From Podaxis mareebaensis (lineage: Eukaryota > Basidiomycota > Agaricomycetes > Agaricales > Agaricaceae): a DNA stretch of 47,380 bases. The stretch is from contig JAEUWP010000595.1 of the NCBI GenBank assembly GCA_018524725.1, positions 1 through 47,380 of the forward strand. The letters are read 5' to 3'. Below are positions 1 to 35,158 of the stretch, piece by piece. The position numbers and the translations under genes are program-made. The notes beneath the pieces were generated by a model. The model saw nothing but the letters and a program-made list of their open reading frames with translations, did no database searches and had not been told where the DNA came from. The first letter of the stretch is position 1. Each line of letters begins with the position of its first letter.

Positions 1-198
1 CTCACTCCATTGTAGCAGAGTAGCTACTTCTATTTTAGGTATGTTCTTTTCCTTGTTCAGTAACTGGGGAGGGTCCGCTTAATTTACTATGTTATTTTCA
101 CAGTTTAAATGGCCGAAAATGTCTAGATTTGCCCCTATTTTCATTTGGGGCATGTCAATGGATCACCCTGTTGAGGGTGCAAGTTGATGTTGACTTGT
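1..198. other. 3' non-coding tail of element 1
   Basis: Follows the last in-frame stop of the extra ORF on the minus strand. No open frame of note. The expected polypurine tract and 3' LTR (which should end in CTTACA on the plus strand) are not visible, so the element continues beyond the window edge. Confidence 0.5.
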
Positions 199-3100
199 TT
201 ACAAAGGTAACAAGGATGAGTGCAAGCAAGAGGAGGTGATTGAGGATGATTCGCTGATGACATCTTGAGATGATGGGGCAGAGGTGTTGGCCTCAGCCAG
301 GAAGGTGATAGGTGGGAGGTCAGACACAAGGGCAGAGGCATTGGCCTCAGCCATGGTTGTGTCTGATGAGTGGTGCTTAGTGGTGACAGGGGTGGGTACA
401 GAGGTGTTGGCCTCTGTCATCTGGGTGTCCCCATCAAGAGCCACTTTTTTGGGGTTTGTGGGTGCTGGCTCGGGGAGAGTTGGGGCAAGGGGGTGAGCCA
501 GCTGTAGTTGGGAAGGTGGTGGCTCCAGCAGGTGTTGGGGGTAGTTGCAATTCTGGAGAAGTCAGAAGAAGGGCGAAGCCCCTGCCAGTAGCCACCCTCA
601 GGGAACAAAGTGCTCCCCTTTTGTCTGTTGCAAATTCTTGTGCTCAAAGTACAAGAATCGATTGATGTCATCTAGAGTGGGATGTCTCCATCCATCCCAC
701 TCGGGGATCACTGGCAGCTCATGGTATCAGTTGAGATAAGTGACCCAGCGATTGTCATGTTCGTTGTAGAGGTCATAATGCAGTTGATCACCACAATAGG
801 TGTGGTTGAGCCACCACAGCCTGAAAAGATAGGAGTGGTCTACCCATGAAATGGGTATACCATTGCGGATGAGAATGTGAGCCACATCATTGAGGCTCAG
901 GTTGTGCGAAGCATATGAGGTCATTTCCAGGGGCCATATAGAGTATACGGGCCCATTCTGAGGAACGAAGGCATGTTCTGGGGGAACGTGACTATTGTAT
1001 GATGCAATGAGTTCACAGTAGAGGTGTGGGGTTGCTACCAGTACTGCAAACAGTTGTACAAATCTTTGGGCAGCACTTTTATCATTGGGACTCAATGCAT
1101 GGCCCAGGCCATACCTGAAGATGCAGTGATGGTGCACGAGTTTCCATTGTTCGAATGCAATGCCATTAAAGGCATTGCATGTGTCGAGTTTCCATGTATT
1201 AGAAGATATTGACCTAAAAGGTCAATATCGAACAGCTGCAGTCCAGAGGGCATTGGTAATCCTTTGCCCTCATTTTGCTTGAGGATATTGTGTGTGCCAT
1301 GGTCTTGTACAGCACACGGGATGGGCTCTAGTCTGGTGATGTATTCCTCCTGCATCCCAGGTGCTAAAAACTTGGGGTCGTAACCCTCAAGGTTCAATAT
1401 AAATTCCATAGCATCATCATGATGCTCTGGGAGGGTTGAGAATGTGATGTGATACAGCTCTTGAAGCAAGAAATATGCTTCGAACCTGCTGTGGATGTTG
1501 ATATGGCAGTTGTTCATGAACCACCATAACCAGAGTACTTGTCTTGGGGTCATGGGTAGACCCCAGCCTGCAATGTGATGGATGGTGCCCTTCTTGTTGT
1601 TGTGAATGAACTCCCAACCTTGGAGTTCAGTGTTTGCAGCAAGTTGAGCATTTGTACCAGCGAACACAGTGTTTATTTGCTGGCAGTAGTAGATGTCGTG
1701 CGACAACATTCCACACATGAAGTTGTCGTGTTCTCAGATGCCAGGTTCAGTGCCCCAGAGTCCCCAAAAGTTGGGGACTCTACCTCTGTGGCTGATAAGG
1801 TCTGATATGTTGGCACAGTTGTCATTATTTGACAACGGTGCCTTAGATTTGCTCTTGCTCTTCTTGCAACAATTCTTTGTGGAATCATTGTCATTGCTCA
1901 AGTATTCTAGTCCTGATAACTGTTCATCTGGGTCATCTGGGCTGTACCAGACGAATTCATGATGAAGTCAGATTTCAGGTTCTGGGAGGAGATTTCCTGG
2001 TGGGCATACCAGGATGGGCTGGCCAAAGGAGAGTCCCTCAAATAGGGATTCCGATGGGACGATGCTGCTCGAGGTCTGTTTTGTTGACCTCAATGGGGTA
2101 GTTTGAGTAAGTTCTGTCATGGGGACATCAATGTCCCTGGACAGTACCTCCTCAATGTATGGTAGGGTGACATCAGCTGGCAGTGGTGGTGGCCGATGTG
2201 ATGATGAAGTAGCCAGTGGGGGTGAAGGTTGATGATGCTGGTGAGGTAATGGTTTTACCTTGTTACTGGTGCAAGGTGTCAGTGTCATGGGTGTTTGTGG
2301 GGTGCTAGGCACCCCCCATTGGGATGATGTCATCGATTGAGACATCGCGTGCCATTCTTCTTCATGGTCTGATTTTTCACTCAGCTGTCGTTGCAGGTCT
2401 GAGACCTGCCTTTGTAGTAGGCTGTTTCATCCTTTGAGCATGATGAAATGATCTTGCAGACTGCAGAGCTTTGCAAGAAGCTCCTCAATAATTGCGTTAC
2501 AAGCACCATGTCGGGAACTGGTGCTTACTTCTGATATCAGGTCTATAGGTAGACCTGCTTCATTGAGGCAGTTCATTAGCTCTTGGATGTATTGGTTGTC
2601 CTCGAGCTCCATGTCTATGGCCTTTTGCTTTCCTCAGGCTTTTGAGGAAAGGATGGGCTGTGCTGGATTGGAAGTTTTCTGTTTACCCTTGTCCTTAGAG
2701 GATGAGGGTGGCAGAGATTTTGGTGCCCTGCTCCTTCCTCTGGCTGTCATTACTGAGGAAGATCTGGACAAAGGGGCAGCATTGCTCCTTCGTGGTTTGG
2801 GTGCCAGTGGTGGGTTGGGTGTCAGTGTGGTCAGCCACTGTGTGGTTGTGGGCTGATCTTGGTTCAGTGGCTGCAGTTGCTGGGGTGGGTTTATCATTTG
2901 CTGAGTTGGTGTGAACAGCTGTTGTGTGAGTGGCACAGGCTGATGCTGTTGGAATGGTTGGTATAGTGCCATTGGTGGAGGGTAGGGGCCATACAGTTGT
3001 GGGAAACTGTACATGTGTGGAGGTGGTGGATAGAATGCAGGGTATGGAAAACCCTGTGCAAACTGTGGTGGTGGTGGAGGCATTGCATGCAGATGCAATG

Positions 3101-3479
3101 GTTCCATTGTGTTTGGGGCTTGTGGTAGCATGCCCACAAGGTTGGTTAGTAGGGCCTGATGGGCAATGAATTGTTGCCCATCATCTCTTTGTATTGGGGT
3201 TGGGTCAGACGATGTGTCCATCGCCCTCCCCCCTTCGAGGCCCATTGGAGGGCCTCCAGGTTGTGCAGGGTGATTCGTGTCACCCGCACTGATGAGTTTT
3301 GTTGTTGCTGTGTGTGTTGGGGTTGTTGCACATCCATGGTGGTGGTGTTGAAGCAAGAACAAGTTAGAGTTATTTGTTCCATCTCTGTGTTCCCAAACAT
3401 TGGGAATGCAATCCTCAGGGTCAAGTGTCCAAATTTGGACACCATCAATTTTTCCATGGATAGTCATTGACTGATCCAT
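199..3479 (-). pseudogene. Extra ORF after the chromodomain in element 1, function unknown
   Basis: Begins with an ATG at 3479, nine bases after the pol stop at 3488-3490. It stays mainly in one frame to about 1100, then continues in a second frame from about 1137 to 199, so a small indel lies near 1090-1140. Roughly 1,080 residues if joined. Visible layout: a short N-terminal domain; a long Pro/Gln-rich stretch (about 3200-2830); a basic Ser/Arg/Lys patch (about 2790-2640); a Leu/Gln heptad-like segment near 2410 suggesting a coiled coil; another Pro/Ser/Thr linker (2340-2150); then a Trp/His/Tyr-rich globular region (1720-600) containing the motif LWLWWFMNN; and a Thr/Ser/Ala tail. There is no signal peptide and no clear membrane segment, so it is not an obvious envelope gene. 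At least five stops. I do not recognise the family. Confidence 0.6.
1155..1229. repeat. Two adjacent perfect hairpins in element 1
   Basis: 1155-1180: 10-bp arms ATGCAATGCC / GGCATTGCAT with a 6-base loop. 1205-1229: 11-bp arms GATATTGACCT / AGGTCAATATC with a 3-base loop. They are only 24 bases apart and lie in the extra ORF. Confidence 0.9.
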
Positions 3480-3508
3480 GGTAGTTGTCAAATTGAGTCA
3501 GCACCTTT

Positions 3509-3534
3509 CAGCTCTAGATACTGATCTAGAGCTG
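3509..3534. repeat. Perfect 11-bp hairpin at the end of element 1 pol
   Basis: Arms CAGCTCTAGAT / ATCTAGAGCTG with a 4-base loop, inside the last codons of the chromodomain region. Confidence 0.9.
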
Positions 3535-5918
3535 CTAGGTCTTTGCAATGGTGATACAGCTCCCATGTCATATCACCCAGACTCCAGTGTACCTGGAACT
3601 CCACCTTGCCATCATTTGTGAAACAATGACCAATGATTTCATTGATGAACCATTCATGTTCATTGTCTATGCCAAAGTCGTAGGGTTCCAGTTTATTTTG
3701 GCTAGGGAATAGTGCATTGTCCAATGCATTATAGGGCCAGAGCAATGATATGTGGAACATCAGGTGTATTTGATGTTCCTGCAGGGCTGGTGGTAGCTCG
3801 AGACGGTAGTTAGACATCTCAGGTTTGGCTTCCAGGACCTTAAAGGGTCTGATGAACTTTGGGCAGAGCTTTTGAGCTCTGCCTTTTGGCAAGTTAAGGT
3901 TTTTGGTGGAGAGGAATACCAGATCTCTGACTTTAATGTCAGGTTTGGGTCCTCTCCTTTTGTTCGCCTGGCAGGTTTGAAAAACTCACACTTCTATAAT
4001 GGCATCATGAGCAGATGCCAAGTTCATCAGGGTGGCTTTGGCAAATAGTCTAGCACCCTTAGGGGGTGTTAGGTCACCCCATATTTCTTGGATCATACTG
4101 GGCATGTATCCACTGTTCAATTCAAACAGTGCGTACCCAGTAGTGGCCGATATACTTGAGTTTATAGCAAACTCAGTCATGGGTACCTTGTCTACCCAGT
4201 TTTTCTGGTCATGGCTGACTGTTGCTCAGAATATCTGTCTGATATTCTGGTTCATGCATTCGGTCTGCCCATCCATTTGTGGGTGGAACAATGTGGACAT
4301 TAGGAGCTTAGCTCCTAAAATTTTATGGAGTTCTACCCACCAAGCAGAGGTGAACTTTGAATCTTGATTGCTTATGATCGAACTAGGGAGGCCATGTAGC
4401 CTCATGATCTCTTGTAGATAGATCCAAGATAACTTGGATGCTTTCATCCACATATGTACTGGAATCAGGTGTACCATACTCGTCATTCTACAAATGACAA
4501 CCCAGAGGTAGTCAAAGCCTTTGGATTCAGGGAATGGACTGACAAAGTCCATTCCAATGGAATCCCAAGGTTTGGTTGGGACCAGTAGTGAGTGCAATGT
4601 TCCAGAAGGTTTTGTATTCGAGACCTTCAAGCATTGACATATTTCACATGTTCTGCAGAACATGCATGTGTCTTTGGCTATTTTTGGCCACCAGTACCAC
4701 CTTCAGAGGTACTCTGCTGTCCATTGGTCACCAAAGTGACCAATGATCTCATGAGCTTTATTCAAAAGCTCTGTGATTAGTGGTCAGTTGTTGGGAATAC
4801 ATACCACCTCCCATCCTTGGGGGGTGGTTCTTTGAATAATACCGTCTTCATTGATAGTAAAACCACTGTATTTCTCAGGTGCTTCAAGCACTGCTGAAAA
4901 CATGGGGTTGGATGTGTATCCTGACATGATTGTTTTCATCACATCAATTGGGAGCTCCATTGGAGCTTTGGTGGAGACATTACCTGTTAATGCATCTCCC
5001 AGTGTTGGAGACTCAATGAGTTGTTCTCGTGGCTCCTGTTGAGCAACCTGTCTCTGGGCTGCTTCTTGGAGCTCACAAGTTTCAATCTCTCATTCTTCCT
5101 GCCATTCGCACAGGCGAGTGCTTCAGTGCAATGGTCACTCGACCATTGCCTTGACTCTGTCGAGAAGGTGCTCAATCTCCTCAGCTTGTTGTAGGGGTAG
5201 GTCCTCACAGTGAGGATCAATTCTGTGATTGACTTGGACATATTCTCCAGGGGAGTGTTCCTCTCCTGGGGTGTCACTTTCAAAGTAGCAAGACAAGTAG
5301 TCTGCTACTTTATTTTGTTCTCCTTTGACATATGTAATGTCAAAGTTAAAACATGATAGATAGTCCATCCACTGTCATTGTTGGCTAGACAGTCACACTT
5401 GAGTTTTGAAAAACTCCAGTGCCTTGTGATCTGTGATAACATGGATCCTGTAGCCAACGAGTTTATCCTCCCACTTCATTAGTGCTTCTAAAATCACTAG
5501 TATCTCAAGTTCATGCACAGCATAGTTCTGCTGTGCTGGGGTGAACTTCTTGGACATGAACCCTGCTGGGTGGCAGTCTGCCCAGGTGGGTCCTTGTCCA
5601 TACATGGCTCTAATGCCTGTCTTAGAGGTGTTGCAGATGATCCATATAGGTTCCCCAGTCCTGGGGTCTATTGGTTTGATAATGGGGGTCTTCTCACAGA
5701 TCCTCTTCACCATGTCAAAACATCATTGGTGAAGGGGCCTCCAATGGAACGGGGTCCCATTCTGAGTGATTGCGAGCAGTGGCCTGGTGTATGCAGATAT
5801 GTCTGGCAAAAAGTTTGCCAGGTAGTTGACGAGTCCAACGAATTGTTGGACATCAGTATAGTTTCTGGGAGTGTGCCACCCCCAAATATGAGTCAGTTTG
5901 TCTTCATCTGGGTGTATC

Positions 5919-5976
5919 CCTTGGTCATCAATAATATGACCAAGGCAGTCAATGCGATCTGCATACAGATCGCATT
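5919..5976. repeat. Two adjacent perfect hairpins in element 1 RT
   Basis: 5919-5945: 10-bp arms CCTTGGTCAT / ATGACCAAGG, 7-base loop. 5951-5976: 11-bp arms AATGCGATCTG / CAGATCGCATT, 4-base loop. Both are inside recognisable RT coding sequence downstream of the YLDD motif. Confidence 0.9.
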
Positions 5977-7246
5977 TGGATTGTTTGACATATAATTTGT
6001 GTTCGCACAGTCACTCAAACACAAGTCATAGATGATCTTCGTGTTCATCTATTGAGTCAGAGAATATGAAGATGTCATCAAGGTATACATGTACACATAT
6101 ATCTATGACATTGCAAAATATAGTGGTCATTAACTGCTGAAAGGTTGCAGGGGCATTACAATCCCCCTGCTGCATTATGTTGCTGACATACATGCCAGCA
6201 ATTGTAGCAAATCCCATTTTGTCTACATCTTCCAGACGTACTTGGACTTGCTTGTAGGCATCAGCGAGATCGATCTTGGATCGATATCATGCTCAAGTGA
6301 CATCTTCTCAAATGACGTCTTGGTCTGGCAAGGGCATAGCATCCTTGATGGTGTTTTCATTTCATTGTCATGCATTGATGATGGTTTGTAGTTGACCGTC
6401 TTTCTTTGGGATGCACAGTAACAGTGCTGCTTGGGAGATATGTCATGGCTCCCACCATTTTGCATTCACATAGTGGTTGAGTTTCTGGTGAAACTCCCCA
6501 TGCAGGGATTGTGGGCATCTGGGAGTGAAGTAGCTATACTTCTTACTCTCATCAATGAGGTTTATTTCATGATTTACTTCACAAAATGGGGGAAGCTCAT
6601 CTGGAGGACCATGCATTATGTCCTCAAATTCATTGAACCACTGCTGGTGCAGTGTTGGTATGTCTTTCTTGGAGTACTGGCCTTGTCACTCAGGGTGGTG
6701 ATTCCTCTTCTTGGCATTGATCCAAGCATTTTGTATCCATGTTTCTGAATCGTCTTCCACTGGAAGACGAGTGACGATCATACTGTGGAGTTGGTCTCAT
6801 ACCATTTTATCAGGGTAATGTACCCTGGTAAACTCCTGGATTTTGACTACATCATCAAGGTTGGGTTGTGTGAACCCAGTCGAAGTTGGTAGTTCATCCC
6901 CAGGATGATGCATTTCCCATATGCTGCAGACCATGGCATTCCATTCTGTGGGCATGCAGGGGTCATAGTACCATTCAAACATTGGGTTCTGAGTGGGTCT
7001 GTCTATCAAATGAGACTTGTATCTCATTTTTTGTGGTCCATGAGGGGCATTTTGTCCCTCTTGGTTTGGTGAAGGGTGTAATTTTACCTTCAGTTTGTCT
7101 CTCTTGGAGGAGACCTTGTGTCCTCTGTGACCTACATCCCCCCTTCAAGAGTTCATGGAACTCTTGACCTCTTCTAGGAGGTGACAGCTATTGTGGGGTA
7201 ATGTTTCCCCTTGGGAGCTTTGTTCATCATCTCGAACTGCTTCTAT

Positions 7247-7280
7247 GGATGTTCAATGGACACCGTCCCATTGAACATCC
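7247..7280. repeat. Perfect 13-bp hairpin in element 1
   Basis: The longest stem found: arms GGATGTTCAATGG / CCATTGAACATCC around an 8-base loop, between the protease and RT domains of element 1. A second small palindrome (AAGTCAA/TTGACTT) follows at once. Confidence 0.9.
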
Positions 7281-8128
7281 TCCACAAGTCAACTTGACTT
7301 GTTTTTGTCAGTTGCACAGTGGCAGCACAGGCAAGTATCTGATTCACTGGCAAAGTTTGCTACTTCTATGGTTTTGCTTCCAATTCTGACTTCATTCTTG
7401 ATGAAGTCAAGGATGACGTTGTTTGTATGCATGAATGGCATACCAATTATCATGTCATAGTGATTGAAGTTTGCTACATCTACATATGTACAGGTATGTA
7501 TGTTTCCAATGGCGACATTTACTGTCACTCTGTACTTGACAGTGGATCAACTGCCCACTGTCCCCAGTTGCAGTGTGTGAGGGTCTAATAGTTCATTGAC
7601 CCTGATGCCAGCCACTTGTGCAAATGTGGGGGTGATGCCGGTAGTTGTACTACCAGAGTCCCACAGTGTCCAAGCATCAATACCATTGACACTGATGAGA
7701 GTGGCAAGACATTGTTTCTCACTGAGGGAGGCTTGGGGCTGAAGGATCTTATCCTTCTCTTTATGGAGGGTAATGCAGTGTACCCTCACTTTGTGGTCTG
7801 GTTTCTCACTGGGCTCGACAGTGAGAGTGTCAATGACATTGAAGTTGTTGCAATCTTTGTTGTTGACATCTTCTGTGTTGCCAATCATGGCAGCAAAATC
7901 ATATTTGTCATCAACATCAGATCCATAGTCTGATTCAATGACTTCAACTTGTACTAGTTTGTCTCCATTTGACAAACTAGACTCTGGTTCTTCTTGGACC
8001 TCAGTGTTGTCATCTGAGGTTGAGTCCTGTTCGATTTCTTCAACTTCTTGTTGAAGAACTTCTTCATCATTTGCTGGAATGACTGTGTGTGCAGCTTGTA
8101 CATAGCTGCATCATTTCCCCTTCTCTAG

Positions 8129-10975
8129 GCATTCTTGTGCCCAGTGACCATGTTTTCCACATTTGTAACAAGGCCCTTTCTCTGTGGCCTTGTTCCCTTG
8201 GTTCTGCTTAACAGGTATCTTGCTCTGTACCTGTGGTTTGAATTGAGCCTTGGGTTTGTGTTGTCGAGGTGGAGGTCTCAATGGTCATTTTGGTGGAAAG
8301 GCATTTGAGGATTGCCTTAGCTCATGGGCAGGGATGCAATCCTGTCCTGCAGATATGTGACAAGGGACCCATGCAGTCCTTGTTCTTGGTTCTGCTGTGG
8401 CAGGTTTCTTTGGGAAGCCTGCTGATGGTTCATGTGATCAAGAAGGTTTCAGTACCTTTTCGAAGAAAGCACTGCTTTGCATCCAATTCTCGTAATTGGC
8501 TGCATGTGCCATGAAGTCCTCAAGTTGATTCATCTCAGGAGATAGTCCTCTGTCAAACATGAGGAAGTGCCTCATGGTTTGCAGGAGACCTTCCAGGAAG
8601 GTCTCAATGAGAGAATAATTGTTGGGGTGGATTGCCATGTCTTGCAAGTAACCCAAGATGGTGTCATAATAGTGTTGAATCCCTTCTTTGGGATTATACC
8701 TGACCCCTTTGAGGCTTTCATGAGCCTCGTGCATTGACGTTGGTCTGATGAATCTGTCATAAAGTGCTGTAATGATGCTCTTGAATGTCCAATCATATTT
8801 ACTATGATCTATACTAAGTACATGATGGACAAACATATCCTTTGCCTCTCCAATGAGGTAATATTGGAGGGTTAGGATTCATAGTCAATCCATAGTGGGA
8901 CTCTGTCCCCCTAGTCCTTTCATGGCGAAGTCAGCACAGAGACTTGTTACAAATGACAACAAGTCTCTGAATTGGTGACTTCCACTGTATGGTTCTAAGC
9001 TCTTTTCTGTGGGGAGCTTGTTCAACAAAGGTTTATAACCTTCAGGGTACTCGATTGGTTGTGCGAGGTATTGGTTGATTGTTTGATGTAAACAATCATA
9101 CATGAGGTTATTGTAGCTCTGGACAGATTGTACGATCCCCAGAGTTACTGACTTGTCACATGCCTCTCTGACTAGAGAGTATTGATGAGTCCCTTGGTTC
9201 AGCGTGGGGAGTCATGAGGTGGTGTATACCTCCCGCTCCTCCTTTGTGTCAACTTCTTCCTCTCCTTCTTCCTCTTGGACAGGAGGAAGATTTCGGAGGG
9301 GATGTAGGTTGTATAGTGGGGGCAGATTTTGCCCCTGCAAGGATGGTTGTTGGGGTGGGGAGGCCATCCTGACCATTTTGTGGGTAGTAACTGTTTGAGG
9401 TGTCTTGAGAGGGCCTCCAAAGAACACACAAGTAGCTGCCTTTTGCTCCTCGTGTTCTGACATGGTGGCCTCAATGGGTATATGTCCATTGAACCTAATA
9501 TATTGGTCATCTATCAGAGACGACCCATGGGTGTGGATGTCTTTGTTTCGCATCCATTGTAGGGCAACCCAGTTGCTCCACTTATCAGCACGAGGGGTTC
9601 ATGTAGCCATAGGCAATACGAATGGGGTACTCGAGGCTTGGAATGAGCCAGTGTTCATAGGAATGCTAGTGGTGGAAGGTAGCTTGGCTTTAACATTTGA
9701 TGTTGAAGCCACTGGGGAATTTCCACTGGCCATGGGTTTGGCCAATGGCGATCTCATGGTTTCAGGGTTCATTGCAGGGTAGTTACTACCCTGTGCCATT
9801 GTTCTTGGTGATGGTACACCCATCAGTCCTTTCCCTTTGGGAGAAGGGATAGGGGGCAGTTGAGGCAACCAATGTGGGTTGAGGGTGTTGATCTGACCCT
9901 GGGGGTCAGGTTGCATTAACAGGGGAGGTGGCAGTCAGGATTGTGATGCCCCAGTGGTTGGGGCATGGCAATGCAATTGGTTTGTGAAGGTATTGTTCCC
10001 TGGGATTGTCTCACTGTCCGTGACAGTGGATCCATTGATGGTGAAGTGTGTGGCCCTTAGGCTGTACCCTTGTGTGTGTCATCATTGCATGCTGAGGTGC
10101 TTGTTGTAAGCTTGATCTGTTTCCCCTGGTTGCCTGGGTGCATGTAAATGCACCACAGCTTGGGTGGTATTCAATAACACAGTCAGGGAGGGAGATGGAT
10201 GGCATGGATGTAATTGAGGAGCTGCAATGCAGAGTTGTGGTTGAGGTGTTGCTGGCAGTCCATCGTTATTGTGTTGACAATGGTGCTTGTGCACTGGGTG
10301 TTGTTCAGCCCTCTCGATCACTTCATCAATTTTGGCATTGAGGGGATCATAGGTGATCCCATCATTAGTGGAGTCAAGGATGTGCTCGAGGTACTGTTGA
10401 GTAGGTTGTATTTTATATACACTGTGCATGGGCATAAGGTCAGTTTATTTGACCTTTGTGGCCCAGGCCTTTTGGTAGGCCATGCAGAGCTTTGTCAAAG
10501 CTCTGATATAGGTAGTGTGGAATCAGTTGGAGCTGACTTCTATTGGCGAGTCAGTTTCCCAGTATGACTCCGCTATGATCATTTCAGTGTATACCAACAT
10601 TTGGTGTTGGTGTTGGCATTTAATAATGCCATAGTCTGTGAATATGGAATTGACTTGGTCTTCTAAGGAGACCACATCATTGAGAGCAGGGGGCAAGAAT
10701 TCCAGCATCGATGGTTCAGAGTGTGAACCATCAGATTAGTGTGTTGTGCTTGATGAGGGGCACAATGCTAGGGGATGGCTTGGCTCAAATTCAGGGAATA
10801 GGGGAAGCTCCAGAGGAGCTTCCTCACTGTTGGTGGATGATTCATGAGCTGACACGTCTGCTGGGGGTGTGGTGATGGGGAAGGGGATTGTCAGTTCATA
10901 GCATGGTGAGGGGATAGATGGTGAAGGGGGTGTGAATGGGGTGTGTAGGTTTTGTACATTCATGTTGCATGTCAT
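8129..10975 (-). pseudogene. gag: Element 1 Gag
   Basis: Structural protein of the particle. The first ATG in the frame is at 10975; the N-terminal third is Pro/Ser-rich. A capsid-type retrotransposon Gag segment lies at about 8836-8438 (FIRPTSMHEAHESLKGVRY, then RHFLMFDRGLSPE). A CCHC knuckle of the form CX2CX4HX4C (CYKCGKHGHWAQEC) lies at 8129-8170. Several stops interrupt the frame, but the frame itself is kept from 10975 into pol. Hairpins of 9-12 bp sit inside it, for example at 8937-8969 and 10485-10505. Confidence 0.75.
8937..8969. repeat. Perfect 12-bp hairpin in element 1 gag
   Basis: Arms CAGAGACTTGTT / AACAAGTCTCTG with a 9-base loop, inside the Gag frame. Confidence 0.9.
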
Positions 10976-11153
10976 TGCATTGAGATGTCATTGTGTGTCT
11001 TCAGACACATTGTAGTGTCCAGGGGGGTGGTTGTGCTGTCAGGCCATTTGAGTAAGTGGTGACAAGAGCTTTTTACTTTAGGCTTTTAAGCGCAATAGTT
11101 GCATTTAATGGATTCACTTAGTATGTGCCCAAGTGCAGGGTATTGTAAAAAAG

Positions 11154-11242
11154 TGTAAGCCTACTGGGGCTTACTCAGAGCTTATGACCTTAAGTTCACA
11201 CCAGCATACAATAAACCTGATATATTGGGACGTATGTAGTGT
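11154..11242 (-). repeat. Element 1 5' LTR, left half
   Basis: Starts TGTAAG; the matching end CTTACA is at 18437, giving a TG...CA LTR with 6-bp terminal inverted repeats once element 2 is removed (about 272 bases). Bases 11155-11174 form a 7-bp hairpin (GTAAGCC / GGCTTAC). The LTR was inferred from its ends and position only, because the partner LTR is outside the window. Confidence 0.55.
11239..11242. other. Target site duplication of element 2, left copy
   Basis: GTGT immediately before the LTR; repeated at 18251-18254. Four bases, within the usual 4-6 for gypsy integrases. The low-complexity GT context makes the exact length slightly ambiguous. Confidence 0.7.
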
Positions 11243-11555
11243 TGAATGACGAAGGTTGCGAGTAAGAGGGGCTGAGAGTGAGAGAGAGAGACGGCAGCTC
11301 AAGATAGGAATTAGACTCCAAGAGAGAGGTGTATTTCGATACGCGTTCAACAACTATTTCTATGAAATCGGACAATGGCAGACAGTGACAAAAGTATCTA
11401 AGAGGGGACGAACAAAGGAGGACGGTTGTGATGCGTCCTATGGTGAGAGACGAGTTGTTTAGGTAAAAAAATAGATACTCGGACCATTGTTTGGTTACAG
11501 AGGAGAACAATGCGATGTTCCGTCGTGCTCGCGCAGCCGTTTCCCATTCCCTACA
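11243..11555 (-). repeat. Element 2 3' LTR
   Basis: 313 bases, starts TGAATGACG and ends CCCTACA; matches 17938-18250 apart from about six CpG-to-TpG changes, for example T at 11434 and 11437 regions where the partner keeps CG. Confidence 0.95.
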
Positions 11556-11570
11556 CCTGCCCTTTCCTTC
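11556..11570 (-). promoter_or_regulatory. Polypurine tract of element 2
   Basis: Reads GAAGGAAAGGGCAGG on the minus strand, directly against the 3' LTR, where plus-strand DNA synthesis is primed. Confidence 0.7.
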
Positions 11571-11695
11571 AGAAAGCAACTGTCCTCAGTTGCATCGAAA
11601 CAGACCCTTCCAACCCTACTCGTCACCATAGCCCATACCTCAATCCCAACCTATCCAAGCCCCCTAATCCTTGCCAACTCCTTCTACCCTTTCCT

Positions 11696-14600
11696 TCAAT
11701 CCCTCGTGGCCGCCGAATTGTCTTCTTCGCCTTCCAACCCAACCAAGTCCACAAGATCCACAAATTCTGTAACTTGAAGCTGATGAGGTGACCGTGCGTG
11801 GTAAGGAATTAGCCGGAATGCTGCAAACTTGAGTTTTGAAACAATGCCGGTCACTTCCGCTAGGATATATGCGCCGCTTCGAAGGCGTTTTACGACCACC
11901 ATTGGTCCGAAGTAGCGGGGCTTGCACTTGCGGCCGATCTCGGGCTCAATTTTTTTATTGAGGACAAGGACGAGCGTTCCAGGAGTGAAATCATAGTCGA
12001 ACATCTTGTTTTTGTTGCCTTTTTCGAAGTGTTTAATAGAACGAAACCGAGCCTTCACTACTTGATTGTGGATCTCGGCTAAATCTTCATCACGCTTCTC
12101 GAGTGCCCATGCCCGAATTGCAATGAGTTCTGTCAAGGAAAGTTTGTGTGAAATTGGGGGAGCAAGGAACGTGGCTTCTGTGATGTCGAAGGGGAGTAGA
12201 GGCTCAACGCCATGGACTGCAAAATATGGTGTAAGTCCCGTAGATTTCCGTGTAGTCACCCGATCTGCCCAGAACACGTATGGTGCATGTTCGTACCATT
12301 TCTGAACATTACCATCGCAGACTTTGATGAGTGCGTCTCGAATCGTTCTGTGAGTGCTCTCCACAACACCATTTGACTGCGAGTTGTAAGCAGAGATGTG
12401 AATGTGGTTGATGTGGTACTTAGCGGATAGCCAGTCGAGTGCTGCCACAAAGGCTGTTCCATTGTCCGTAACGATCTCCTCGAGTCCACCCCATTGGCAC
12501 AGAATTTCCTCAAAAATGAAGCTACCCAGAGTGCGTCCTGTTTCCTTCATGAGAGCCCGCCATTCTGGCCACCCTGTGAGACTGCAACGTGCTTGCACAA
12601 TATACTTGTACCCATGAGATGGTGGCATGTGCATCGTGTCGATATAGGCCTTGCGAAATAAGGGAGCTGGTGTCTGGACAGTTGGTGGAATGATGACATG
12701 TTCCGTGGATCGAATCTGGCACTGATGGCATGTCTTGATGAACCATCGGAGGTCGTCGTTGAGAGATGGCCACCAGAAATGATCTGTAAGAGTTCGTCGT
12801 GTGGCAAAGAATCCCTTGTGGCCTAATCGGTCATGTGCTTCGATCAACAAACGTGTTCGTTCCTGCGGTTCCATGATGACGACTTGATGTTTGCCTGAGT
12901 ACTCTTTCCTCCATAATCGCCCGCTGTTTACGAAAAACTTGCCCGCATGGTTGATTAGCTTCTTCCTCGCTTTCTCGGTGAGTCCCTCTGGCATCTGCAG
13001 GGTTTCTAGAAAGTTCCTGATCCTCGTCATTTCCACATCTCTCTGCCTCGTGTTGTCGTCATATGGCCTCGTGGTATCTGTGCCTTCCCTGCCCTTTCCT
13101 TCTAAAATGGCGCCCTCGTCATTCTCTTCCAAATCCCCTTTCCTCCCAACCATCTTGACCCTTGCCCAATTTTCTTCCAATCTCTGATGAACCTCTGCTA
13201 CCCAGATCCCACAACCCAGAGCCTCGTCCACCCAGTCCTCTGCTTCTTCCTCCGCCTCATCTTCATCCTCGCTGTCTTCTGACCTCCTCCGCCTTGACAA
13301 CCCGTCTGGTCCCACATGTTTGGTCCCTGGAACGTGTACCAACTCGAAGTCAAACAACAAAATTGCTGCAATCCATCGGTTTATTGCTGCATTAGGATGA
13401 ACATCAGGTCGGTTGATCATCCCTTTTATATATTTTGCATCTGCTTCAACAACCAGCTTGGGTACTCCAATAATCCAGATTTTGCATGCGTTGAGTGCCC
13501 GATAGAGGCCATATAGTTCCAGTTTTGCTTGGGAGTAACGTGAGATTCGTTCATTCCATGCTATTGATCCGAATCGGGCAGGTCATCTTCATTTGGTGCT
13601 ATCGAGCTGTGCCAGGATGTAACCGACTGTGATGACTGAGGTGTCGATGGAGAGAATGACATCATACGGGAGTGTGTGGTCGATTGGTCATATTGCTTCA
13701 CATGTCGTGACTTTGGTTTTCACTTCTTTCATGGCTGCTCGCTGTTCATCGCCCCACTCGAACTCGGCCTTTGTTACTCGGGTTAACTTGGTAAGTGGAT
13801 TGCAGATTTCCGCGAAGGACTTGATCCAATTCCTAACTGTCCCTGCCATGCCTAGAAATCCCCTCACTTCTGACACGTTCCTACACTCTGGCCACCTCAG
13901 GATCTTGTCAACAGTCGTTGTATCTGGCCTCTGTCCTTCGTAAGTGCATAACCGCCCTACTACCACAATCTCTGGTTGACACAGTTGGAGCTTTGCTGCT
14001 GAAACTGTTGCTCCCGCATGTTTGAGCCGATGGAGGATTCGATTAAGGTCGACTGCGTGCTCCCAGATGAACCATCGAATTTCTGGGTTATCTGGAATTG
14101 TTTCGTAAGTGCCATTGTCCTTCTCGTAATGTGTTTTTGGCCCTAATAAGGTGATATCGTCTAGGAAGTTGGGTGCATTTTTGGTTTCGTCTTGCAGGAT
14201 AAAAGCGACATCGTTTTGAAATATCCCCACTGAGCCTGTCCATCCTTGTGGTAAAACCGTTAGACAAAACGTCCCCAGAGGTGTGTCAAAGGTAGTTAGA
14301 TCTCGTGATTCCTCCGCTAAGCCCCGATGATCATAGCCAACAAACATGTCTAGCCCTGAGTAAATTCCTCGAGCTGCGCATTGTTCAGCATAGAGATGGA
14401 CGAGTGGTGGTGCCTGGGAGTCTCAAATGGTGATGGCATTGAGAGGCGTCAAGTTGTGTACAATTCGTACGTTCCCATCTTTCTTGGCTACTGTGAACCA
14501 TTGATGCCGATATGAGCTGTAGGATGGTTCGTAAACACCTGTCTCGATCTTTTGTTTGATGAGGTCAATGACTTTGTCGCAAATTCCAGGTGGTATGGGG

Positions 14601-15589
14601 AGTGATTTCTTTGTCCAAGGCACATGCTCAATGATGGGGATTTTTATAGGTTCGAAATAGTCGTCGCAGAATCGCCCTTTCTCAGTTTCGTCCCATGCGA
14701 GGCTGCTTTCGTTGTTCATCAAGGCTTGGGCAATGAGGTTCTGTTCTGTGAGAGTAAGGAAGTTGTTCTGAAAAAGGCCAAGTGCCTCCATGCGTTCCTG
14801 AGTGAGTCGTGAGCCTGGTTGGAATGGCAGTGGATGTGTTGATAGGGGGGGTAATGTGTCAAGGGGGTTTTCGGGAAGTCGTCGCACTACTCGATATTCG
14901 CTCGGCATTGTAGCAGGTACTGGACATGTCTTGTTCGCGACCTTCTTGTATGCCAGGCAGTGCGCCTGTGTATTGTACTCGAAGGATATCTCGAGGACTG
15001 TATTGGTGAGTGAGTCTTGAGCCCCAGTGATCTTCATTGTCTCTGGCTGATTTCCCATAACCATTAGACTCCGTCGTGACTTTTCTTCAACCCTTGCTCT
15101 TGTTGGTATCACCACTTTCTGTGCTGGGTTCATGGGGTTCGTGACTATGATCTCGACCTGCCCGTCTGTTCGCACTTCTCGCCCCAGCTTAACTCCTTGC
15201 TGCCATGGCCGTCCCAACAATAATTTATATGGTGCCATCCCCACCACGAATGCATGCGCGTATGTGCTGACTCCTCCTATCATGATTTCCAACCACTCGA
15301 CGCAACCTTCTAGCTCTTCCTTCCCTCCGTTCGCTGTCTGCATAGTCATCCGCCTTCCCCGATTCATCTCACAGCCCAGCTCCTCACACAGATCTCGCCG
15401 AATGATCACAATTTCTGATCCTTCATCCAGCAGTCCCATTTCCCTAACTATTTGCCCATCTTTGCCCTTTAGCTTTACTTCAACTTCGCGGAGTGGTGTT
15501 GAAAATTCAAGGGGGACTCCTGGTGTCGTCGTAACCATGGTACCAGCAGTTGGGATTCGTTGTGTGCGTATGTTGTCTATCATTAATCG
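11696..15589 (-). pseudogene. pol: Element 2 Pol: protease, RT, RNase H, integrase
   Basis: Same frame as Gag. Protease: LLDEGSEIVII with Asp at 15425-15427 (DEG in place of the usual DSG) and LLLGRPW. RT: VHNLTPLNAIT, then LPQGW, and FLDD (14156-14167) in place of YxDD. RNase H: SIDTSVIT, AKLELYGL and VEADAKYI supply the acidic residues. Integrase, counted from the methionine at 13420: His196, His201, Cys231, Cys234 zinc domain; Asp261, Asp319, Glu354 catalytic triad intact. Internal stops at 14423-14425, 13688-13690, 13589-13591 and 13583-13585 are all TGA; the first interrupts a spot normally Arg-Asp-Ser. The frame ends at 11696. No chromodomain. Confidence 0.9.
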
Positions 15590-17743
15590 TCAAAGATCGG
15601 GGCTGACAGCTAGTAGCTGCTTGATGGTGATTTCGGGAACTGGTACATTCAGGAGGTGCTGAAAGGTTTCTTGTGTCAGCTGTGGGTTCACGATTTTTGA
15701 CTCGAAGTGGTAGGCTGGTTGTATGCCTGCTGGTCCTTTGTTTCCTTCCTGTCTTTCTCCGCCTGCTTTCCCTTCTTTCTTTTCGAAATCCTTCTTCCCC
15801 TGCACTCGTGTAGTCACCAACCCATCTGCTTCTTCTCCCATACTCTCCAACTCAGTCATAGCTCCCCATACGAACCCTTCCTCCTCAAAATCCTGCACTG
15901 ATATGAATGATGTCATGGCACCAGGTGTTTCCATGTGTGGGGGAGAATCACGTATTGTTGGGGTTGTTGGACTCGATGTAGTGGTGGTCGTAGACAGTGG
16001 TAGGGGTCCTCCCCACTTCATGTCGATTGCTGCCTTGAAGCCATCTGGGTGCCATTCGATTGGTGATCCGTCTGCATGAACATGGAAACCATTGGGGAGT
16101 ACCAGCATTCGGTTTGTGCGCACGTATTCTTGTGCAACTGTGCATACTCGCATCTTGTGAGGGCCTTTGCACATGTGGCATGCAATTTCTGGTGATGAAT
16201 TCGGGTGTTGCATGGATGCACTTGGGTTTCCAGATGGCATGTGTGGTCCCCGATTGGGTTGGCCAGGATATCGTGGTCGCATGTGTGGATATGGTTGAAA
16301 CCCTGGTGGCTGGGATGGATACTGTGGCTGGTACGGTTGCACGGGTGGCATTGATGGATACTGTGGCTGGTATGGTTGCACAGGTGGCATTGATGGTTGG
16401 AAGTGCTGTGTTGTCGGCATCGTGGGGTGTGTCAGCATGTTTTGTGTCGCTGGATATTGGGAAAATGATGCTGGGTGTGGTTGTAACTGCGATATAGTTC
16501 CAGTGTTCATGGTCCATCGTGATAAGACTGGTGGTGGTATGTGTTCCTTGAGTACTGGAGCCAGTGTGACGAGTTTCGCATATTTCGCCATGTACATTGC
16601 ATCTCCCACATCGAGTCCTCGTAGTTGTCGCGTCAACTCCTCAATACCTTCTGTATCGTCTCCTTTCCCCTTCCCCTCAAACCGCACCTTCCTTGTTCTA
16701 ACCTCTCCTTTCTTCAGCTTCCGGCCTTTCTTTTTCTTCTTCCAATCCTCCTCATCACTTGATGTTTCTGTATCTGATTCTGAAGACTCCGATGAGTCCT
16801 CCGAACTCTCTGAATCCTCCGAATCTGAATCATCTGAGCTGCTACCCCTTCGACCCTTCCTTGATCTTTTCTTCGCCCTTGACCTCCTCTTTCCTCTTGA
16901 CCTATCTTCTTCATCCACCGCTTCTCCTGAAAGAACAAATCTTCCAGCCTTCCATGCTTCTTCGATCTTTGGAATCTGTGACCGGCTGAGGTTCTTGTCC
17001 TCTACCTCAAGTCGGGCTCGAATAAGCTTGCACGTGCTTGTTGGAAGTCCTTTCCAGAAGTAACGGTCGCATTCATCGGTCGAAATCTTGTTGTTGGTTA
17101 CAAGGTGTGTGGCGATTCGCGAAAACTCCCGGTAAAACTTGTTGAGCTGATCTTCATTACGAATTCTCCTGTCTTCATCCTCAATGAAATCGAGCAAATG
17201 ATTGAGGGTGATCTTCTCGCCGAGTGCTGTTTTCAAGTATGTTTCTAGGATTTTTGTCTTGAGGGTGTCGTAATTCTGATCATAGCCATCCAATCCCTTC
17301 CAGAATTGCTTGGTTTCACTGTCTGTGTACTTCACCACCATTTTAGCCTTCTCCGCTGATGTTAACCCACAGCTATCAGCCAAGTCTTCAAATTCCTCCA
17401 AGAATTCCAACAGCTTCTTTGGCTTTTCTGAATTGAAGTGGGGTGCCTTCTTGCTAGACGCGCGTGGCATTCCCCCAACTCCTATTGGCCCCAGTCTATT
17501 GCCTGACATTGCAGCAGGAGGTGATGGCGTGGTAATCAGTGATGCAGTGATATGTGGTACAGCGGTTGGTGTGATATTTGTGAAGTCGGCAAGTAGAAGT
17601 TTCCGGGAGTGTCCTCGTAAGGTTCCTTCTTCCAAGGGTTGATGTTCGGTGATGTCTGATAGAATAGTTGGCCTTTCGAAGGCAGTAGGTTTGACGTTGG
17701 TTACAACAGGTTCTGATACGCTTCGCTTGGTAGACTTCTTCAA
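15590..17743 (-). pseudogene. gag: Element 2 Gag part of the Gag-Pol frame
   Basis: 717 codons from the TTG at 17743; the first true in-frame ATG is at 17509 (MSGNRLGPIG), the likelier start and giving about 639 residues. Capsid-type domain (FEDLADSCGLTSAEKAKMVV onward), then a basic/acidic low-complexity stretch (KKRSRKGRRG, SSDDSDSEDSESSEDSSES), a direct repeat of PPVQPYQPQYPSMPP units, and a zinc knuckle CHMCKGPHKMRVC of the shortened form CX2CX3HX4C. It ends in TGA at 15590-15592. The next codons stay in frame with pol, so the stop is probably a CGA arginine codon changed to TGA, not a designed terminator. Confidence 0.85.
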
Positions 17744-17915
17744 TGTCGTAGTTGGATGTCCTCGAAGCGTTGTAGGACTTGCTTCACGTGGCTTGGGTGA
17801 TGTGTTAACTGATGAACTTGCCGCAAGACGGCGCGTCCAGGTGCGAGTTTGGCGGGTGCTGCTGGGTTCAGACGTGATGGAAGTAAGAGGGATGCAGTGT
17901 CAAGGACAACTACAG

Positions 17916-17934
17916 CCCCTCGCGGTGGGCTCCA
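17916..17934 (-). promoter_or_regulatory. Primer binding site of element 2
   Basis: On the minus strand this reads TGGAGCCCACCGCGAGGGG, three bases after the 5' LTR. It begins with TGG, the complement of a tRNA 3' CCA end, and so looks like a standard tRNA primer site. The tRNA was not identified. Confidence 0.65.
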
Positions 17935-17937
17935 CTA

Positions 17938-18250
17938 TGAATGACGAAGGTTGTGAGTAAGAGGGGCTGAGAGTGAGAGAGAGAGACGGCAGCTCAAGAT
18001 AGGAATTAGACTCCAAGAGAGAGGTGTATTTCGATACGCGTTCAACAACTATTTCTACGAAATCGGACAATGGCAGACAGTGACAAAAGTATCTAAGAGG
18101 GGACGAACAAAGGAGGACGGTTGCGACGCGTCCTATGGCGAGAGACGAGTTGTTTAGGTAAAAAAATAGATACTCGGACCATTGTTCGGTTACAGAGGAG
18201 AACAATGCGATGTTCCGTCGTGCTCGCGCAGCCGTTTCCCATTCCCTACA
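17938..18250 (-). repeat. Element 2 5' LTR
   Basis: 313 bases, same ends as the partner at 11243-11555. It keeps CG at most of the differing sites; at one site (17954) it carries T where the partner keeps C. Confidence 0.95.
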
Positions 18251-18254
18251 GTGT
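18251..18254. other. Target site duplication of element 2, right copy
   Basis: GTGT immediately after the right LTR, matching 11239-11242. Confidence 0.7.
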
Positions 18255-18437
18255 GTTATAAGGTCAGCTGTCCTAACGACAGCTGACGATGAGATTATAA
18301 AGAGTGTGTGTTTGATGGATTGAGTAATCCATCAATGCTGAAGACAAACAAGAGAATTTATTAATTAATTAATAAAAGGAGTGACTAATTGATGAGGGAA
18401 TAAGAGACAACACGATGGTAAGGGCCCAGCCCTTACA
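18255..18437 (-). repeat. Element 1 5' LTR, right half
   Basis: Continuation of the LTR split by element 2. Holds three perfect hairpins: 18263-18287 (10 bp stem, 5-base loop), 18312-18335 (10 bp stem, 4-base loop) and 18418-18436 (8 bp stem, 3-base loop) at its very end. A TTAATTAATTAATAAA run lies near 18360. The host sequence CTCCC (18438-18442) should be the target duplication. Confidence 0.55.
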
Positions 18438-18717
18438 CTCCCTCTTGTCTCCACCCTGCTTATTCCCATCTAGGCTGTCATTCCATAATGTCACACATCT
18501 TTGTCATTGTCATTGTCCTCATGAGGATTCTCAGCCAATCTTCATTCTGAGATCCCAGGTGAGTCTTCTGCATCCCCCCTGCCATCTACATCATATTCAC
18601 CATCCTGTTCGCTTTCTGTGTGGCTTCCAGCACTTGTTCATGGGAGAAAATGCATCGTCTTATGGGTGTTTCTAACAAATTGGAAATTGTGGTGCAGGCA
18701 GTGAAAGCTTCAGTTCA
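18438..18717 (-). pseudogene. Duplicated acidic coding fragment, copy 1
   Basis: Diverged direct repeat of 18977-19266. Read on the minus strand it gives an acidic, disordered-looking peptide (ESEQDGEYDVDGRGDAEDSP, then RLAENPHEDNDNDKD) with TGA and TAG stops. The plus strand shows splice-like GTGAGT and TTCCAG borders, but the minus reading conserves acidic character better between the copies. Origin unknown; acidic linkers like this occur in several fungal transposases. Confidence 0.4.
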
Positions 18718-18976
18718 TAAGTACTAGATATGCACCCAGCAGGATGTCTTGTCATCCCAAGTCTGAAGAGACCATATACTTGCAAGCCAGGATTAGCACA
18801 AACAACAAAGGGAATTCTATAACTCAGTTTATGAAAGGAATACTGAAGTAGGGACTATGGCATTCCACTGGACATATTTTTGAGTACATTGGGGAGAGAG
18901 TATAGTTGGGAATGAAGGACAGTGTGTACCTTATGCCTTATGCCTCTGTGTCTGCTAAATACCCTTCATCCTCATC

Positions 18977-19266
18977 ACTGCCCTCTTCTTCACCTCCACC
19001 CTCCTCGTTCCTATCTAGGCTTTCATTTCACAACATACATGCATCATCCTCATCGCTGTCATCCTCATGAAGATTGTCAGCCAATCTATGTTCTGACTTG
19101 GTCCTAGGTGAGTTTTGTGTTTCCTGTTCATCATCCACATCGTATCTGCTGTTCTGACTGTCTTCTGTGTTGCTTTCAGCTTCTGTTCATTGAAGAATAT
19201 CATTTTCTTACTGTTGTTCCTAGTGGATTGAGTGTTGCGATGGAGGCAGTGAAAGATTCAGTTGAT
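18977..19266 (-). pseudogene. Duplicated acidic coding fragment, copy 2
   Basis: Partner of 18438-18717. The minus-strand reading includes YDVDDEQETQNSPRTKSE and RLADNLHEDDSDEDDA, then an in-frame TGA and another acidic run (EEGGGEEEGSDEDEG). The two copies align along their length with many transitions. No family recognised. Confidence 0.4.
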
Positions 19267-20168
19267 GATGCAGTGGTATCTAGAGTTGGTGAGCAGGCAC
19301 CAGGACTGTTATGAGAGTACTTACAGAGCAACCGGTTGGAAAGTGTTCATTCTGTAGCATGTCAATACTGTGTGCTTGATTGAAAAGAGAGACGAGATCA
19401 GTTCCAAGTCATGAAGTTCATGTTCCCACTATACATGTACAAACAAATAATTGGGCGTTGCTCATATTCATGGGTCTGAAGGGGTTTTTCACTTGAAAAT
19501 GTCTATTGTAGATACTGTAGGTACTGTAGAATGCATTATATTTAGGTCAGCTAAAGTTAATCAGTGATTGCCAGGGCTGATGCGATATGTGGCCTGAGCG
19601 GTTTACAATCTCTCCTACACCCGCAAGATCTGCTGTCTATATAGCCATTTAAGTGCTACTAACACTAATATGCCCATGTATGTTATGCCAATGTTTTTTA
19701 ATCTTACATTTTTGCTCATTATTCCAGAAAATGGAAAGATTTTATATTTTGAATGCCAAAAAAATGTTGAATATGAATATCTACCTGAAATATCATTGCA
19801 GGTCAATACATTCTGAACAAAAGGATTTGATGGCATAAGAAATGTGCTCAAATGTTTCGGCCATGCTGTTATAGCACCGAAAACATTGCATGCCCTTACA
19901 TACTGCTTCAAATGTTTTTTTTCTGCTATTAATGTCTATTTTATCTTTCAAATACTATACATAAACCAAAATGTAATAATAGTTTTAAGCCATTTCACTG
20001 ATGTTATTCTACATATCTATATTGAGACATTCATAGTTACTTCAGTGTTCTAATTATACTAGACCAAGCCTGAGGTAAGATACTAGATCTGCTGAAAGGA
20101 GTTACTGATATACATGGTATCACCAAGTCTGAGTGCTAAGTATAGCCTAGCTTCTGAAGATCCAAGGT

Positions 20169-20173
20169 GAGAC
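20169..20173. other. Target site duplication of element A, left copy
   Basis: GAGAC, repeated exactly at 42236-42240, over 22 kb away. Confidence 0.85.
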
Positions 20174-25235: not shown

Positions 25236-25385
25236 GAGTGGGAGGGAATCTTTTGCTTTTCTTTTGGGAGAAAAGGTCGAGATATTTGTGAAACTCCCAG
25301 GGAACTATTTTCTTGGGATCAGTCTCCCTTTTCTGTTCTCCTGCTTGGGCTAATATTTGAGAGTAAGAGGTCTTGGCATTTATTT
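25236..25385. repeat. LINE target duplication, left copy
   Basis: 150 bases of element A pol, identical by eye to 28833-28982. The last few bases could instead belong to the T-rich tail. Confidence 0.85.
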
Positions 25386-28832: not shown

Positions 28833-28982
28833 GAGTGGGAGGGAATCTTTTGCTTTTCTTTTGGGAGAAAAGGTCGAGATATTTGTGAAACTCCCAGGGA
28901 ACTATTTTCTTGGGATCAGTCTCCCTTTTCTGTTCTCCTGCTTGGGCTAATATTTGAGAGTAAGAGGTCTTGGCATTTATTT
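28833..28982. repeat. LINE target duplication, right copy
   Basis: Identical to 25236-25385. Both encode the same pol segment (SQILAQAGEQKRETDPKK), so element A pol is read through the junction on either side. Confidence 0.85.
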
Positions 28983-31894: not shown

Positions 31895-31928
31895 CGATGT
31901 GATTTATAGTCAGAGGGTCTTCTTCTGA

Positions 31929-32135: not shown

Positions 32136-32176
32136 TAGTTGGGGCAAAATTACAACGTGGGATCAGCACATGAGGG

Positions 32177-32188: not shown

Positions 32189-32190
32189 GA

Positions 32191-35127: not shown

Positions 35128-35158
35128 TCGAGTAGCTTGGGGTCTAGTGGAGATTGTG

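Follow-up and report, generated by a model that had tools for sequence, protein, structure and literature searches.

A Ty3/gypsy retrotransposon family of Podaxis mareebaensis carries near-perfect short hairpins along its whole length

We analyzed contig JAEUWP010000595.1 of the mushroom Podaxis mareebaensis over its entire 47,380 nucleotides (the window; contig C180 of the 36.95 Mb genome) and found that a retrotransposon on its minus strand, named element 1, is filled with short perfect inverted repeats far beyond chance. Element 1 is a chromodomain Ty3-type (Ty3/gypsy) long terminal repeat (LTR) retrotransposon, and the same wealth of hairpins is found throughout its family, in coding sequence and LTRs alike. 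We give about an even chance to the reading that selection maintains, in this family, a genome folded over its whole length, comparable to those of viruses with genome-scale ordered RNA structure (GORS) and of single-stranded RNA (ssRNA) phages, and that template switching provides stems.

A full scan for perfect inverted repeats with arms of at least 9 bases and loops of 0–12 returned 38 in element 1, 35 of them within positions 1–10900 and three (at 18263, 18312, and 18357) in a severed piece of its 5′ LTR. The original prediction had named at least eighteen; all 18 are present where it placed them, with arms of 9–13 bp, and the scan adds 20 that it had not listed. At arms of at least 7, 8, 9, and 10, we observed 101, 55, 38, and 20 repeats vs 9.47, 2.55, 0.67, and 0.22 in 60 dinucleotide shuffles, a 57-fold excess at arms of at least 9, for which the highest shuffle count was 3. 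The chance expectation calculated earlier, about 0.5, matches these shuffles, and the claimed density of one short hairpin per 60–100 bases agrees with 167 repeats with arms of at least 6 in 10.9 kb, one per ~65. The excess is real and exceeds the earlier claim, which had set the hairpins inside coding sequence: the coding part is indeed full of them, but the LTR is filled as well.

Outside element 1, the window (35,956 bases, divided by region limits set in this analysis) contains three repeats with arms of at least 9, vs 1.25 in shuffles: none in a second retrotransposon, element 2, one in 18439–25640, none in the region of a long interspersed nuclear element (LINE), one in 28841–42240, and one in 42241–47380. 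Six had first been counted beyond 1–10900, three of which turned out to belong to element 1's own LTR. A slight excess of short arms exists here, with 35 repeats at arms of at least 7 vs 25.6 (highest of 20 shuffles, 34). In the LINE region (25641–28840), 4 repeats have arms of at least 7 vs 1.4 in shuffles, and 2 have arms of at least 8 vs 0.2. Two related gypsy elements share one arm-9 hairpin, at 24888–24907 and 37618–37637, in what is apparently a homologous reverse transcriptase (RT) segment, and show no general excess at arms of at least 9.

Shuffles that preserve the encoded protein, proposed earlier as a possible refutation, do not account for the excess: gag-pol holds 28 repeats with arms of at least 9 vs 0.76 in codon shuffles and 1.65 in codon-plus-dinucleotide shuffles, with maxima of 4 and 5 in 100 of each. 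The latter shuffle mixes poorly, notably in short frames, and in the shortest of these (213 amino acids in element 1; 338 amino acids in the complete relative on contig C237, at arms of at least 8 and at least 9) it attained the observed value. The two long open reading frames (ORFs) of element 2 contain no hairpin with arms of at least 9. The idea that the arms are built largely by synonymous choice is supported by the RT ORF of C237, in which, among homologues, arm codons are no less conserved than the others, 0.635 (67 codons) vs 0.562 (402 codons), P 0.15. The codon phase preferred by hairpins pairs third with second positions (36 of 67 vs about a third in codon shuffles). Loops of 3–8 bases are enriched 22–50 fold and the effect is absent past ~30 bases, a profile expected of real stem-loops. 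For 8-base direct repeats, the ratios are 1.5–7.5 where the gap is 8 bases or less, on counts no higher than 4, and 1.2–2.3 at gaps of 31–1000.

In an integrase search, 48 of the 150 scored rows (two of them representing one copy) had 69–100% identity, after which identity drops to 40%; in an RT search, the gap runs from 61 to 41%. Of the twenty loci fetched, 16 belong to the family, one (L027) has a fragment of a family member next to a different element, and three are Ty3 elements outside the family. Repeats with arms of at least 7 exceed shuffles in 16 of 16 family loci (20–92 vs 2.8–10.2), the weakest being L020 (20 vs 9.4), of which only ~1.2 kb aligns to element 1. The three other Ty3 elements show no excess at this arm length (5–11 vs 5.9–8.6); their RTs are only 30–33% identical to those of the family, so that the boundary of the trait within the wider clade is not fixed by these three outgroups. 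In three complete elements, hairpins occur throughout the LTR-to-LTR interval and fall to 0–1 per 500 bases directly outside. Named homologues of the family proteins belong to Agaricomycetes, and RT relatives occur in Agrocybe, Leucocoprinus, Phanerochaete, and Peniophora, with 59–75% identity over 58–83% of the query, proteins alone having been compared. No DNA relatives in other organisms were found among viral contigs or prokaryote genome contigs, the matches being homologous proteins only.

Two subfamilies can be distinguished, A (element 1) and B (C237), with 57% of aligned bases identical and similar hairpin densities. Locus L022 (C70:10113-20112), which had been considered a third subfamily, was reassigned to B; it contains two subfamily-B copies arranged tail to tail on opposite strands. 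Within subfamily A, comparison of nine copies gave 436 of 441 hairpin instances (arms of at least 8) as shared, meaning that some other copy retains the hairpin with no more than two pairs lost; only 4, too few to use, are private, and 1 could not be scored. The other side of this comparison with related copies, also proposed earlier, is that most coding hairpins are at different places in subfamily B. The two subfamilies have 275 stem columns in common vs 184 by chance, and two A copies 771 vs 163; the A/B overlap is so little above chance that most coding hairpins must have been replaced since the split. The LTR stems are the exception, three of them lying at homologous places in both subfamilies.

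The stems evolve more slowly than their surroundings. Rates were compared over well-aligned columns, with differences split into shared and singleton ones rather than pooled. Among the nine A copies, transversions found in at least two copies affect 20 of 1605 stem columns vs 89 of 2612 nearby columns (odds ratio (OR) 0.36, P 8.5e-6), that is, they are 2.7-fold rarer in stems, and loops are as free as the flanks (21 of 497 columns). Singleton transversions, which mostly arose after insertion, show little stem difference (OR 0.74, P 0.10). Since shared transversions mostly predate insertion, this contrast indicates that stems were maintained while the element was active. Subfamily B behaves similarly in three copies (OR 0.35, P 0.013) and in a more distant pair, L021 and its nested neighbor copy (OR 0.57, P 0.0035).

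The LTRs were compared in an A set, made up of 20 of 40 scored hits and three in hand, and a B set, of 20 of 40 scored hits and one in hand. In the 23 A-type LTRs, which are non-coding, transversions are found in 1 of 71 stem columns vs 58 of 175 columns elsewhere and 6 of 18 columns in loops. Cells in which both sides of a stem have changed number 9 in A vs 3.0 in shuffles (0 of 500 reaching the observed value) and 11 in B vs 5.5 (8 of 500). Compensatory changes can also be read in the coding part. The hairpin at 10485..10505 (arm 10, loop 1) has one pair that is A-T in 5 of 9 A copies, G-C in 3 of 9, and unpaired in 1 of 9; in that at 9775..9793 (arm 9, loop 1), one G-C pair is A-T in 4 of 9 A copies, with both sides changed, and those four have another mismatch.

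Loop inversions are evidence for template switching. Under a test in which position, orientation, and flanks are constrained and the stems of the compared copies match, loops that differ at most of their positions amount to 19 distinct cases in B and 73 in A, of which 5 and 10 are near reverse complements of each other (3 and 2 exactly). Plain reversal accounts for 0 and 3 cases, and plain complement for 2 and 5, the latter overlapping with the reverse-complement set. Two inversions are robust, GGG/CCC in B and TCT/AGA in A: they involve transversions only, and the inverted stretches, stems included, span 21 and 25 bases, which makes independent point mutations an unlikely source. The TCT/AGA inversion is located at 10803..10823 (arm 9, loop 3), where the loop is TCT in two A copies, its inverse AGA in five, and CGA in one, with no site in one copy, and the stems are identical across A copies except for one base in one copy. 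These two robust inversions show that hairpin-directed template switching occurs. A study of template-switch mutations ranks a compensatory change that accompanies a loop inversion as the strongest evidence one could have for such switching, and it also counts plain loop inversions (PMC8794818).

A third inversion, in the subfamily-B hairpin homologous to 4647..4664 (arm 9, loop 0), is probable: six copies have the loop TGTG, two have CACA, and one has TGCA. It is graded lower because a CGCG loop decaying in two directions would look like an inversion, and decay of this type was read in a B LTR loop. The two CACA-loop copies may be sisters, with 6 privately shared alleles vs up to 15 in other pairs. 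A proposal that this change falls on a zinc-binding Cys of the integrase was withdrawn, the ligands presumably being the two Cys residues that follow the site. A first, longer list of inverted loops in B was mostly false, as it came from comparisons with the two opposite-strand copies of L022.

The strength of folding was estimated as the folding-energy difference at 350 nt, approximating the method of PMC7642675 with non-overlapping fragments and our own dinucleotide shuffles. On the sense strand it reaches 20.8% in element 1 and 24.9% in C237, vs -5.5 and 1.1% in two control elements; on the antisense strand, it is 15.6 and 18.1%. The same kind of calculation on six ssRNA phages (MS2, Qbeta, GA, PP7, PRR1, and SP) gave 15.5–25.8% for sense and 13.9–23.7% for antisense. 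In PMC7642675, SARS-CoV-2 has a difference of ~15%, and the highest value given for a vertebrate RNA virus is 23.4%, so that the family lies near or above that maximum, with a method that differs in detail.

Taken from LTR to LTR, the family genome is a string of short near-perfect local stem-loops, in which pairing was preserved and loops were left free during replication. As the subfamilies diverged, hairpin density stayed similar and most coding hairpins moved; new or repaired perfect stems would be partly supplied by hairpin-directed template switching in the element's own reverse transcription, the stage at which such switching probably takes place. Selection rather than mutation bias would keep the hairpins, and the molecule that folds would be the RNA or the cDNA made from it. 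The benefit may be packing, avoidance of nucleases or of RNA interference (RNAi), or separation of sense and antisense strands. Of the two causes put forward in the original prediction, template switching and selection for a folded RNA, both stay in play, the loop inversions speaking for the first and the stem-specific conservation for the second.

Several observations weigh against whole-length folding kept by selection. The family has 2.3 perfect stems of at least 9 pairs per kb vs 0.31 in the ssRNA phages, about seven times more, and perfect stems of at least 8 pairs relate to one-mismatch stems as 100 to 63, vs 23 to 45 in the phages; selection for folding alone need not yield stems so common and so little interrupted. 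The remaining Ty3 families looked at in this host manage without the trait. The shortage of transversions in stems is not significant in six B pieces of 3–4 kb (P 0.24) or in the B-type LTRs (4 of 50 stem vs 34 of 181 outside columns, P 0.085). The LTR hairpins tested were chosen by their presence in the reference row, which favors conserved ones, and they may owe their conservation to particular roles of the LTR, two of the four stems being at the ends on which integrase acts. Compensatory changes are present but few, and the case they make is thin: counted as pairs rather than cells, those changed on both sides in the LTRs are no more frequent than in shuffles (A, 2 vs 1.1, 51 of 500; B, 3 vs 1.8, 110 of 500), and 8 of the 9 two-sided cells of the A-type LTRs come from one pair and represent one inherited change. 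At this pair, which belongs to the 3′ LTR stem, 15 copies have G-C and 8 have A-U, and no copy is intermediate.

The main rival is a mutational ratchet, in which the family's RT would often let the nascent strand snap back on a nearby imperfect inverted repeat, copy the other arm, and return, so that imperfect palindromes turn perfect and accumulate without benefit, within the tolerance of the encoded proteins. The complete loop inversions GGG/CCC and TCT/AGA, all transversions, and TGTG/CACA, with their matching stems, speak for it, although the last could also have arisen from a decayed CGCG loop. The stems, which are strictly Watson-Crick and perfect to an unusual degree, also agree with it, as does the finding that a single family has the trait out of those tested within one host, which makes the responsible agent likely to be encoded by the element. 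Moreover, a nearby reverse-complement copy of at least 10 bases explains 19 of 3671 clusters of at least 3 differences in A and 14 of 1467 in B, vs 3 and 4 for reversed and 1 and 0 for complemented controls; most cluster matches of 9–12 bases, however, look like stems decayed in one copy. By our reasoning, copying from arm to arm would not slow the evolution of stems, yet stems are slow, and most clearly so in the A-type LTR, which has no known encoded protein, an argument against a purely mutational origin. The rewriting of a single arm was sought in lineage-specific hairpins and not found: these differ from the sister sequence in both arms, and cases with all differences within one arm (2 of 11, 9 of 26, and 4 of 21) compare with 3.2, 7.7, and 6.1 expected. 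The longest perfect arm is 13 bp in the three sequences for which arm lengths were listed. We regard accumulation without benefit as rather unlikely, while taking it seriously, and we are doubtful of its boldest form, in which the family's RT is a palindrome-writing machine that by snap-back switching at each round makes perfect hairpins of the element's genome, in coding and non-coding parts alike.

Selection could instead act on the folding of both strands or of single-stranded cDNA, and not on genomic RNA alone; such folding might, for instance, prevent sense strands from pairing with antisense strands or organize the cDNA. When G-U pairs are disallowed, the excess folding of the two strands is near-equal (23.8 vs 21.8% and 28.2 vs 26.0%), and one-mismatch stems of at least 8 pairs show no preference for G-U over A-C (11 and 17). 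When G-U pairs are allowed, however, the sense strand is the more folded, as in the percentages given above and in the z values at 120 nt (-2.78 vs -2.28, P 0.016 in C237; P 0.18 in element 1). The six ssRNA phages are themselves near strand-symmetric, without clear G-U preference, and symmetry is consequently no pointer to DNA, or to both strands, in particular. We consider this explanation improbable. The absence of a G-U excess had for a time been used as an argument against RNA-level folding and was dropped, as the six phages show none either. Finally, the CpG depletion (observed/expected ratio 0.19) and skewed composition of element 1 might have spoken for an artefact, whether of base composition, low complexity, coding constraint, or assembly. 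Such an artefact is refuted by the loss of the signal in dinucleotide and codon shuffles, by the hairpin richness of the relative L021 with a CpG ratio of 0.9, and by the presence of hairpins in all 16 family loci, ending near the element ends.

The other hairpins of element 1 with arms of at least 9 are distributed as follows. The longest have arms of 13 (7247..7280, loop 8) and 12 (8937..8969, loop 9). Arms of 11 are found at 1205..1229 and 1757..1781, both with loop 3, and at 3509..3534 and 5951..5976, both with loop 4. Those with arms of 10 are at 675..702 (loop 8), 1155..1180 (loop 6), 3157..3183 (loop 7; perfect here alone among nine copies), 4531..4555 (loop 5), 4722..4745 (loop 4), 5919..5945 (loop 7; perfect in 9 of 9 A copies), 6750..6770 (loop 1), 7145..7167 (loop 3), 7954..7980 (loop 7), and 8585..8605 (loop 1), to which the severed LTR piece adds 18263..18287 (loop 5), 18312..18335 (loop 4), and 18357..18376 (loop 0). 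Arms of 9 make up the remainder: 2628..2651 (loop 6), 3425..3442 (loop 0), 3754..3779 (loop 8), 3862..3883 (loop 4; common to subfamily B), 4227..4249 (loop 5), 4300..4318 (loop 1; with a near-perfect counterpart at this position in subfamily B), 5128..5149 (loop 4), 5282..5311 (loop 12), 5323..5345 (loop 5; near-perfect in 2 of the 3 subfamily-B rows displayed), 7284..7302 (loop 1), 7387..7409 (loop 5), 8036..8058 (loop 5), 8167..8194 (loop 10), 9076..9098 (loop 5), and 10710..10732 (loop 5).

The main part of element 1 (1..11236, minus strand) comprises the 5′ LTR tail (11154-11236, minus strand), gag, protease, RT, RNase H, integrase, a chromodomain region, and a further ORF, and has 87.9% identity over 11 kb to a complete relative on C287 (BLASTN). 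Its 3′ end lies beyond the contig edge, and only the split 5′ LTR is in the window. The first ~186 bases of this LTR (18251..18438, minus strand; 79.8% identical to C287 LTR 1-186), which carry the three arm-10 hairpins, were severed by element 2 (11237..18250, minus strand), which is nested within the LTR and is not hairpin-rich, so that the full extent of element 1, element 2 included, reaches position 18438. The 5-base target duplication of element 2, GTATG (11232-11236) and GTGTG (18251-18255), shows one transition between its copies; its LTR copies are 98% alike. The gag-pol frame of element 1 (3491..10987, minus strand) is interrupted by 35 TGA and 2 TAA codons and includes the RT core (5924..6484, minus strand; 8 internal TGA, 67% amino acid identity to the relative on C237), the zinc-binding and core region of integrase (4229..4702, minus strand; PF17921 and PF00665, both under the curated cut-off), and the SH3/chromodomain region of integrase (3491..3985, minus strand), where PF24626 exceeds the cut-off. 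One or more further ORFs with no assigned function lie downstream of pol (730..3497, minus strand); for a 299-amino acid C-terminal piece of the corresponding ORF of C237, the single homologue above threshold was a hypothetical protein of Agaricus bisporus H97, with 51% identity. The broken frame and the CpG ratio identify element 1 as a decayed copy. With TGA accounting for 35 of the 37 in-frame stops and a strong CpG depletion, the pattern fits CGA to TGA decay; TGA also predominates among the stops listed for other Ty3 copies of the genome.

The complete relatives on C237, C287, and C166 have LTRs of 246–274 bp that are 96–98.8% identical and, by eye, are flanked by 5-base target duplications, GGTAG, GCTCA, and CCTAC, respectively; Pfam matches in the ORFs of C237 follow the order protease, RT, RNase H, integrase. 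The LTR ends (L009:780-1049 and relatives) are short palindromes of the TGTAAGGGC...GCCCTTACA and GTAAGCC...GGCTTAC types, in both subfamilies and in most aligned copies. A tRNA search of the window found none, and an Rfam scan of positions 1-20000 at the gathering threshold gave 0 matches to known structured RNA families.

The family resembles the Ty3/gypsy (Metaviridae) chromodomain elements of Agaricomycetes in its LTRs, 5-base target duplications, protease, RT, RNase H, and H2C2-rve integrase with SH3 and chromodomain, and is set apart by its genome-wide near-perfect hairpins, absent from the three other Ty3 elements tested, and by the further ORF after pol. With GORS-type RNA viruses, as described in PMC7642675, it has in common a folding energy far above shuffles genome-wide, many consecutive stem-loops, and a stem position poorly conserved between relatives, the 275 vs 184 shared stem columns corresponding to the positional turnover reported there; unlike them, it is a reverse-transcribing fungal element with short, near-perfect stems. 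The ssRNA phages show similar excess folding on both strands, but the family replicates through DNA. Template-switch mutations that create or maintain RNA hairpins, as described in PMC8794818, likewise involve loop inversions and compensatory stem changes; they concern DNA replication of RNA genes, whereas here a whole mobile element is involved, probably during reverse transcription. The earlier statement that no retrotransposon family with this property has been described agrees with our full-text searches, which found none and were confined to open-licence papers, a body that subscription papers mostly fall outside.

Folding of whole genomes has been described in RNA viruses, and for LTR retrotransposons no report of it was found in the open-licence papers searched. 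Here, a family of dozens of copies is predicted to fold in this way, with 16 of 16 tested loci hairpin-rich, alongside Ty3 elements of the same host that lack such structure. If its RT does write palindromes, a mutational force and not a function would have shaped every gene of the element within the limits of its proteins. The family makes a long-standing question testable, whether genome-wide folding is selected, and for what, or is a by-product of polymerase behavior at hairpins, with its subfamilies, dead copies, and LTRs serving as natural controls that viruses do not offer.

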